Shown: piece by piece, positions 26,067 to 27,370 of the stretch
Layout of the letters: every line of letters starts with the position of its first letter
How positions within the stretch are numbered: the stretch's first letter is position 1
From: Sulfuracidifex tepidarius
Lineage (GTDB): Archaea > Thermoproteota > Thermoprotei_A > Sulfolobales > Sulfolobaceae
Length of the DNA stretch: 64,000 nucleotides
Assembly: GCF_008326425.1 (NCBI RefSeq)
Contig: NZ_AP018929.1
Location: forward strand, 2,060,875 to 2,124,874
Reading direction: 5' to 3'
Translations under genes and position numbers: made by a program
The notes under the pieces: model-generated
What the model was told of the DNA's origin: nothing
Database searches by the model: none
Seen by the model: only the letters and a program-made list of their open reading frames with translations

Positions 26067-26387
26067 CTAAATTAATTTCTCTTTATAGTTTACTACAAGC
26101 CCTAGTTTCTCGAGGAGTCTCTCTCCGATAATGTTTTTGTCTATTACGGGTGAATACAATATCTCAGCTACAGCTTCTTTTCCAAGCCCACTCACGTTAG
26201 CGAGCTTTACGTAGGTCTCATAGCACTGCATTGATGCGGTGCATATCCTAGGTCCGTCAGAAGGCTCGGCCGGTATCTCGTCAAAGATACCCTTTTCGAC
26301 CAGTAGCTCACCTTGAAACCCTGTGTCTACCTTGACTTTTACTTTGACTTTTACTTTCGTCCCCTCTACCTCTACTTCAAGGTCCAA
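26067..26387 (-). CDS. retropepsin-like clan AA aspartic protease domain protein
   Basis: This 106-residue protein has the single-domain retropepsin pattern: a strand, then [11 protein letters not shown] (catalytic-type Asp21-Thr22-Gly23), a central flap-like region, and [17 protein letters not shown] (hydrophobic-IIG before the last helix). Active retropepsins work as homodimers. Small archaeal members of this clan have unknown roles. It overlaps the upstream 65-residue gene by 11 bases, and both follow the CARF gene at 26690-27370, so the three look like one operon. A tract of alternating KV codons ([10 protein letters not shown]) precedes the active site. Confidence 0.72.
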
Positions 26388-26574
26388 GGAAATACACCTT
26401 ATCTGGAGTCTCCACTCTCACCTTCTTTCCCTCCTTTCTCTTAATCTCCATGAACTTGTAAGCATCGTCCTCACTCTGAAATTCAGCCTCAACTTTGTCT
26501 TCGACCACTACTTTGTAAGTCTCGTTGTGGAATCCGTTGGGTAGGTAGTTGTGGAATCCGTTGGGTAGGTACAT
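26377..26574 (-). CDS. small unknown protein upstream of the retropepsin gene, with tandem duplication and doubtful start
   Basis: From ATG 26574 the frame gives 65 residues: MYLPNGFHN, then the same segment again, then [48 protein letters not shown]-type strands and helix. The duplication comes from a perfect 24-bp tandem repeat at 26524-26571. Upstream, the frame stays open to about 26725 and reads like protein ([14 protein letters not shown], then [15 protein letters not shown]) but has no ATG, GTG or TTG. The gene may therefore have lost its 5' end, use an unusual start, or be translated by frameshift from the CARF gene. Function unknown. Confidence 0.5.
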
Positions 26575-26689
26575 GTCTACTATTTTCCTCGCCCATTCCC
26601 TTAATCTGTATGCGTCCTCTCCTTTCCTCTCTGCTAGACTCCTGATCTCAAGGGAATGAACGGGAATGCCGAGCTCTTTAGCTCTCCTG

Positions 26690-27370
26690 TTAGAGAGCGT
26701 ATACCCGGGACTCTGCGAAGCGAATTAACCATTCGAGGTACTTAGGGGTGATCGTTATAGGAAGAGAAGGCAGAGAGACTACATTGTTGAACTCTTGGTA
26801 CTTGTAGTAGATAGAGTCTGCCCCTGCGAGAAGTCCAGCTAGGGAAAGGAACGTGGTCTCAGGCTTGAGTCCAGGGGTAGCGTTTATGAAGACCTCATCT
26901 CCTTCTTCCTTGAACTTGATGATCCTTTTTATCACCTTGTCGAAAAGGTCATTAATTCCTTCATAAAATGATTCCTCAGAGGATATGGAGCTTATCTCTG
27001 TTTTCTCTCCATGAATACCTTGTTCCTCCAAGTAGTCCTTGATGACTTCCCCTGCAAGTTCCGAGTTCCACGTATTCGTGGTGTACATGAGCACGTAAAC
27101 CTCCTCCTTCGAGTGCCCAAATCTCTTCATTGCTGAAAGGAGGGAGTCCAGCTCTGCAGACCCTCCTTGCCCTTTGTCCCTCAAGTACTCTAAGAGGACT
27201 CCCTTGATCCTGTTGAAATTATCAGCTATCTTTCTCTGTCTATCATCGTTGAAACTCATCCTCTCCCAGTTTTCAAGTCCTAGTTCATCTATAACCTTTT
27301 TCACATTACTGTCTTTTGACGAATTCCCTAACAGCGAAGTTCCTACTGCAGTTACATGAACTTTCCTCAT
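26690..27370 (-). CDS. CARF protein, probable ring nuclease of the Crn1 (APE2256/Sso2081) type
   Basis: Ring nucleases remove cyclic tetra-adenylate and so switch off type III signalling. This 226-residue protein fits TIGR02619/Crn1: start [15 protein letters not shown] (Ser12), the second ligand loop [24 protein letters not shown] (Lys169), then [18 protein letters not shown]. From memory, Sso2081 uses a Ser near position 11 and a Lys near 168; the positions here agree. The C-terminal part after ~200 is short, with no HEPN or nuclease domain. It heads a minus-strand operon with the small unknown protein and the retropepsin-like protein. A non-nuclease CARF regulator is the main alternative. 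Confidence 0.8.

Follow-up and report, generated by a model that had tools for sequence, protein, structure and literature searches.

The window, that is, the whole stretch of 64,000 nucleotides of the Sulfuracidifex tepidarius genome analysed here, contains a CRISPR locus, and a CARF gene followed by a retropepsin gene adjoins this locus on the minus strand. The csa1/cas4 genes and type I-A genes, including Cas7/Csa2, also belong to the CRISPR locus, and the Cas10 with a GGDD motif is located 9.5 kb from the CARF/retropepsin pair. RPD (retropepsin-partner domain) is a name coined in this analysis for the C-terminal domain of about 50 residues in the SSO1393-type ring nuclease. The features of the window are as follows.

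2123-2623, plus strand: small Crn1 ring nuclease, separate from the CARF7 gene
5774-7922, plus strand: CRISPR array, about 34 repeats of GTTGAACCCATAACGGGATTGAAAG (repeat search)
14011-21413, plus strand: type III effector cassette, Cas10 with GGDD (861 aa) and several RAMP proteins (NCBIfam, motif scan)
21525-22391, minus strand: Cas6 (TIGR01877, E 1e-30)
22615-24057, plus strand: Csx1-type CARF effector (PF22230, E 3e-12) with the HEPN RxxxxH motif (RNVLMH, read in translation)
26067-26387, minus strand: retropepsin-like aspartic protease gene, 106 aa, DTG at about 26319-26327 (TIGR03698, E 3e-25; PDLC01133, E 1.5e-24; alignment; model and Foldseek)
26377-26697, minus strand: 3′ part of the ring-nuclease gene in the +1 frame, with the rest of the wHTH, linker and RPD (NF040951 positions 225-321, E 5e-36; PF22165, E 2e-17)
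26380-26526, minus strand: RPD, about 49 aa (HMM E 3e-21; hhalign to tandem-RPD and Cas7 RPD)
26385-26400, minus strand: ribosome-binding-like AAGGTG, 7-nt spacer and protease TTG start, GATARGGTGTATTTCCTTGGA, kept in five aligned genomes
26524-26571, minus strand: 24-bp tandem duplication in two identical copies, adding eight residues (YLPNGFHN) to the linker before the RPD (repeat search); absent from relatives (DNA alignment)
about 26698-26709, minus strand: +1 frameshift site, one surplus base in GAGTCCCGGGTATAC relative to four relatives (DNA alignment), flanked by NF040951 positions 221 and 225
26690-27370, minus strand: 5′ part of the CARF7 (SSO1393-like, Crn1-type) ring nuclease, CARF and first wHTH helix (PF09651, E 2e-33; NF040951; PADLOC CARF7)

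The gene downstream of the pair (24746-25945) has partial similarity to UpsC of the UV-inducible pili locus (E 1e-19). Tandem duplications that keep the reading frame seem to be common in this genome: one of 30 bp (9635-9694) is found at the end of the cas7/csa2 gene, another at 26524-26571 and a third before the DTG motif of the protease.

The SSO1393-like ring nucleases (NF040951) have 322 residues, which form a CARF domain, a winged helix and a C-terminal domain. The window gene is an orthologue of the SSO1393/Crn1-type CARF7 protein (PDB 3qyf; NF040951; PADLOC CARF7--CARF), whose CARF-wHTH-C-terminal layout it shared before the frameshift. ORF1 (27370-26690), rightly predicted to be a Crn1-type CARF gene, corresponds to NF040951 positions 1-221 (E 5e-106), matches the PADLOC CARF7 model PDLC01926 (CARF7--CARF, E 1e-74), has an APE2256/CARF7-type CARF domain (Cas_APE2256, PF09651, E 2e-33) and contains in its translation the VGTS and NATPGLKPE stretches conserved in the family. 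It ends early, at a stop created by the frameshift. The ‘small unknown protein’ that follows (26574-26377) is the last 65 codons of the 3′ part of the ring-nuclease gene, and its frame reaches further upstream, to about 26697-26724 (stop-to-stop frame 26724-26377). The SSO1393 winged helix (PF22165) is divided between the two frames, so that wHTH and C-terminal region do not share a single ORF and the window copy is a broken member of NF040951. Intact orthologues are present in five other genomes (G004, G015, G019, G027 and G030). Judged by these profile matches, the ring nuclease and the small protein are two halves of one SSO1393-type gene. The original prediction of three nearly contiguous minus-strand genes is correct as to the strand and near contiguity of the CARF and protease ORFs; its count of three genes is rejected, because ORF1 and the small ORF are consecutive stretches of the NF040951 profile, and two genes remain.

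The protease scores 88.6 bits with TIGR03698, against a curated cut-off of 57.35, and has a single DTG motif (DTGF, residues 21-24) in a retropepsin fold of about 100 residues. Its AlphaFold2 model has a pLDDT of 88.4, and the best Foldseek matches of the model are the HIV-1, SIV and EIAV proteases (TM 0.69-0.78). By profile, motif and predicted fold, the third ORF is a true retropepsin with predicted activity, in agreement with its initial assignment as a clan AA aspartic protease with a DTG motif. Relative to its relatives, the window protease has a four-residue insertion (KVKV) before the DTG motif, probably a 12-bp duplication, and a shorter C-terminus. The protease start is a TTG inside the 3′ end of the ring-nuclease gene, giving an 11-nt overlap with the ring-nuclease stop codon (26377-26379). 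The start signal (AAGGTG or AGGGTG with the TTG) is invariant, synonymous sites included, in the five genomes aligned; in G024 the CARF and protease genes abut rather than overlap. The CARF-linked proteases are under purifying selection, as indicated by dN/dS ratios of about 0.07-0.12 in most pairs with unsaturated dS and of 0.32 in the closest pair. No homologue of the protease turned up in viral contigs or in PLSDB at the search sensitivity applied, so a viral or plasmid origin is rejected. About 5.5 kb past the window end (G000:C1:2130415-2130633) lies a second TIGR03698 relic, which has an internal stop and adjoins a broken RHH partner. The frameshift leaves the CARF part, the RPD part and the protease uncoupled from one another, so the window copy is probably defective or in decay, even with an open protease ORF. 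The frameshift, the 24-bp duplication, the KVKV insertion and the shorter protease C-terminus together make the break look recent.

Among 31 Sulfolobaceae genomes, the pair occurs in eight, spanning at least six genera: the window's own (G000), G004, G009, G015, G019 (Metallosphaera yellowstonensis MK1), G024, G027 and G030. The ring nuclease of G015 has essentially the SSO1393 sequence (PDB 3qyf). The ring-nuclease gene is frameshifted in two of the eight (the window and G009), and the protease is open in both. In a ninth genome (G010), ring nuclease and retropepsin are both decayed, side by side (L012, 1028870-1029269); that is, they have been lost together. The neighbourhoods of the pair vary from cas4/csa1 with type I-A genes, type III genes or arrays to transposases only or the lack of any cas gene within 20 kb; the pair of G004 and that of G019 are outside the cas loci. 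A Cas10 with GGDD or GGDE is encoded in all nine genomes (surveyed with PF22335; a search with the window Cas10 protein matched only G021 besides the window), so that cA4 could be made in each, and the pair is encoded together with type III genes in cells able to make cyclic oligoadenylate. The locus is a two-gene operon that recurs across the Sulfolobaceae and, because the genes overlap, is apparently a single transcriptional and translational unit. The presence of the same gene pair in seven other genomes is more than chance and supports the predicted functional link between CARF protein and retropepsin and its recurrence in other Sulfolobales.

The RPD is found in three contexts: it ends CARF7, forms tandem repeats in a small protein and ends a Cas7-like RAMP protein. 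The next gene is an overlapping retropepsin in all three. The ring-nuclease RPD aligns with the tandem RPD (hhalign Prob 98, E 3e-13) and with the Cas7 RPD (Prob 94, E 1e-7), the latter link being a profile match over 40-50 residues. The structure model of the Cas7 RPD is weak (pLDDT 62) and has no PDB match, and a structural proof that it equals the SSO1393 C-terminus was dropped for these reasons. The PDB chain of Sis0811, the SSO1393 orthologue, has 275 residues. Across 147 genomes of the order, no proteins other than CARF7, III-G Cas7 and tandem-RPD proteins gave a confident RPD match, and all of these are upstream of a retropepsin with the exception of the decayed G010. The protease is present with all eight CARF7 proteins that have an RPD, and within 1.5 kb of none of the 39 that do not (Sulfolobaceae and elsewhere in the phylum). 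A C-terminal RPD is likewise followed by a retropepsin in 6/6 III-G Cas7 proteins, and no retropepsin accompanies the three that have no RPD, leaving one ambiguous case, in G009. This second CARF7 of G009 (L026, minus strand, 330-aa ORF) has a vaguely RPD-like tail, for which the profile match is not significant, and no adjoining retropepsin. The counts of 8/8 and 6/6 are inflated by shared ancestry; nonetheless, two unrelated partner proteins show the co-variation. In its distribution, the RPD goes with the protease and not with CARF, because III-G Cas7 ends in the same domain where the protease is present and lacks it where there is no protease. The original suggestion that a middle protein could be substrate, inhibitor or bridge therefore pointed to the right stretch, which carries the domain that tracks with the protease, even though it is not a separate gene.

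The Cas7 proteins with an RPD belong to subtype III-G, as Cas7_IIIg, Cas5_IIIg, Cas10g and Csx26 are matched at these loci (PADLOC, NCBIfam). The III-G Cas10 has the HD motif and no GGDD. Nine III-G loci were found, six with both the Cas7 RPD and the retropepsin and three with neither:

L062 (G016), L063 (G013), L064 (G003), L065 (G023), L113 (G028) and L114 (G027): retropepsin flanked by two cas7 genes, the first of which encodes the fusion with the RPD
L110 (G004), L111 (G028, second locus) and L112 (G009): no retropepsin, Cas7 ends just before the RPD, csx26 directly after cas7

The idea, taken from the wording of PMC12669027, that the retropepsin is the Csx26 of III-G is rejected; Csx26 is a neighbour of 127 residues (NF049948).

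The wider family has 44 TIGR03698 matches in the 31 Sulfolobaceae genomes, and the partner is a CARF protein in 8/44. Formally, then, the retropepsin gene usually occurs without CARF genes, which the original prediction had named as a ground for calling the link chance. The link is not broken by this count, since almost every other member of the DTGF type comes after an overlapping or abutting gene with an RPD or RPD-like domain at its end, and all but one of the CARF-linked proteases fall into one group. Proteins consisting only of tandem RPD repeats are followed by an overlapping retropepsin in non-CRISPR surroundings (L135, L136, L137 and L138). In L033, L035, L036, L059, L060, L061, L076 and L077, an RHH (CopG/VapB-like) protein with a DUF5678-like tail overlaps the retropepsin gene, in a toxin-antitoxin-like layout. 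A retropepsin paralogue with NTGF instead of DTGF (L032 in G028, L033 in G015), probably catalytically dead, keeps its RPD-like partner.

In the protease tree, the RHH-partnered proteases form one branch (100/100), and the CARF-, Cas7- and tandem-linked proteases form the other. Seven of the CARF-linked proteases cluster with those of the tandem type. The G024 CARF-linked protease groups with the III-G proteases (97/94), and a single CARF clade has a p-AU of 0.054. Based on this placement of the G024 protease, the module has probably moved between partners. The PADLOC CARF7 model matches 72/398 genomes of the phylum, whereas the CRISPR-type retropepsin is confined to the Sulfolobaceae among these 398 genomes, with one marginal match excepted; this difference suggests that CARF7 gained the module within the Sulfolobaceae. 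Since the retropepsins linked to tandem RPDs or to RHH proteins are located outside CRISPR loci, defence is not an intrinsic function of the RPD-retropepsin module.

The best explanation as a whole, to which we give about an even chance, is that the retropepsin is docked by the RPD on the CARF7 sensor and gated by cA4. The RPD would be a docking domain that tethers a retropepsin homodimer to the sensor. Binding of cA4 from the type III system of the cell would rearrange the wHTH and RPD on the CARF7 dimer, and this change would switch the tethered protease between a blocked and an active state, while the slow built-in ring-nuclease activity might serve as a timer that resets the switch. Within this family, SSO1393 and Sis0811 are the only members with reported ring-nuclease activity; the rate of SSO1393 is about 10-fold below that of Sso2081, and the wHTH of Sis0811 is autoinhibitory (PMC10018336). 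On III-G Cas7, the protease would ride on a crRNA-guided complex, an arrangement that would suit a subtype whose Cas10 cannot make cA4. More broadly, and with somewhat less than even confidence, the RPD-retropepsin may be a transferable proteolytic cartridge that has come under CRISPR control at least twice, cA4-gated on CARF7 with a ring-nuclease timer and guide-directed on III-G Cas7; SSO1393 would then be a protease regulator and not merely a weak ring nuclease.

Two other readings concern the locus itself. A chance neighbourhood of CARF and retropepsin genes without a functional link is hardly credible, even though the family is numerous in these genomes (44 members in 31 genomes): the pair recurs in at least six genera beside different genes, the overlap includes a conserved internal start signal, two unrelated partners show the domain co-variation and the proteases are under purifying selection. 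It is also distinctly unlikely that a full-length ring nuclease is made in the window because its frameshift is programmed or is a sequencing error, which only the reads could exclude. The protease ORF and the RPD frame do stay open, and the site is a short CCCGGG run; however, the aligned relatives keep an intact frame without the surplus base, and the 24-bp and the probable 12-bp in-frame duplications, together with the shortened protease end, fit relaxed selection. In either case, the intact family is what matters.

The remaining readings keep the link and give the partner another role. It is rather unlikely, but not far-fetched, that the partner is the substrate, with the retropepsin cutting the RPD-bearing CARF7, Cas7 or RHH protein, for example in the linker, to release or inactivate the DNA-binding or effector part, and with the RPD as a recognition tag rather than a regulator. 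The RPD or RPD-like domain is always C-terminal, after a variable linker, the N-terminal partners (wHTH, RHH and Cas7) are regulators or effectors, and regulated proteolysis has a type III precedent in CalpL, which cuts CalpT (PMC11229360). The structure of SSO1393 was determined on a full-length chain in the absence of the protease, which neither supports nor excludes cleavage. A toxin-antitoxin-like role, which we regard as unlikely, would make the RPD partner a dedicated inhibitor from which cA4 or Cas7 target binding frees a promiscuous retropepsin, leading to host protein degradation and dormancy. The genes overlap with the partner first, the RHH-RPD partners resemble antitoxin DNA-binding domains, and RPD and protease are lost together in III-G loci. 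Frameshifted partners beside open proteases in the window and G009, however, would be costly unless the separated RPD still inhibits (the RPD ORF of the window retains its own ATG); they are at odds with an obligate toxic protease that depends on an intact partner, and they argue mildly against an unrestrained toxin. Finally, constitutive processing of the partner or of neighbours for folding or assembly, with no cA4 link, is improbable. It would account for the tandem-RPD and RHH versions outside CRISPR loci and for III-G, where no cyclase-competent Cas10 is present and cA4 is thus not a general trigger of the module, but CARF7 orthologues outside the Sulfolobaceae and III-G systems without the RPD manage without the protease.

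If the docked, cA4-gated protease is real, SSO1393, one of the earliest ring nucleases to be discovered and to have its structure determined, would acquire a partner and, probably, another role. The set of CRISPR effectors would come to include retropepsins, whose best-known examples are retroviral, and III-G, in which cA4 signalling has been lost, would gain a candidate effector. One protease module would then be movable between a second-messenger sensor and a guide complex. The RPD offers a direct handle, since removing its approximately 50 residues should uncouple the protease.

The papers found on the SSO1393 type mention only CARF and wHTH, and the RPD and the overlapping retropepsin gene are absent from them. 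A 2025 survey of ring nucleases limited candidates to 250 residues (PMC12409355), which would leave out the 322-residue SSO1393 type, and the 2025 CRISPR classification has only Caspase and Lon proteases among effectors activated by cyclic oligoadenylate (PMC12669027). A literature search found no paper that joins a CARF protein, ring nuclease or type III CRISPR system with an aspartic or aspartyl protease, and no prior description of the CARF7 pairing, the RPD or the co-variation of RPD and protease; an earlier mention may exist in works beyond its scope, namely the structure paper on Sis0811, the CARF classification of 2020 and the surveys by Shah and by Shmakov. What is already known, from PADLOC-DB, is a retropepsin in type III operons of Sulfolobales: PDLC01133 (‘PEPT_D, aspartyl protease, in the type III operon in Sulfolobales’) is the same family as the window protease. 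The originally claimed novelty of a retropepsin partner of a CARF protein is thereby reduced to the CARF7 pairing, of which no report was found. The strongest matches of PDLC01133 (E about 1e-54 to 1e-56) are the retropepsins linked to type III-G, the CARF-linked set forms a mostly separate branch, and the entry is silent on CARF7, RPD and function.

The RHH-type pairs are similar to pairs of DUF5678 (PF18929) and clan AA proteases in that the partner overlaps the retropepsin gene and has a tail that resembles the RPD; however, the DUF5678 matches of the RHH-type partners are weak (E 0.02-0.06, below the cut-off), and their proteases are the separate branch described above (100/100). In Craspase, the type III-E gRAMP with TPR-CHAT, a protease is likewise located on a Cas7-containing effector, as it would be in the III-G version, with a different protease clan, docking domain and subtype. 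CalpL (SAVED-Lon) and SAVED-CHAT resemble the proposed CARF7 system in that a protease is under the control of cyclic oligoadenylate. In these two, sensor and protease of the Lon or caspase type are fused in one chain, while here a separate retropepsin would be coupled to the sensor through the C-terminal domain of the ring nuclease.
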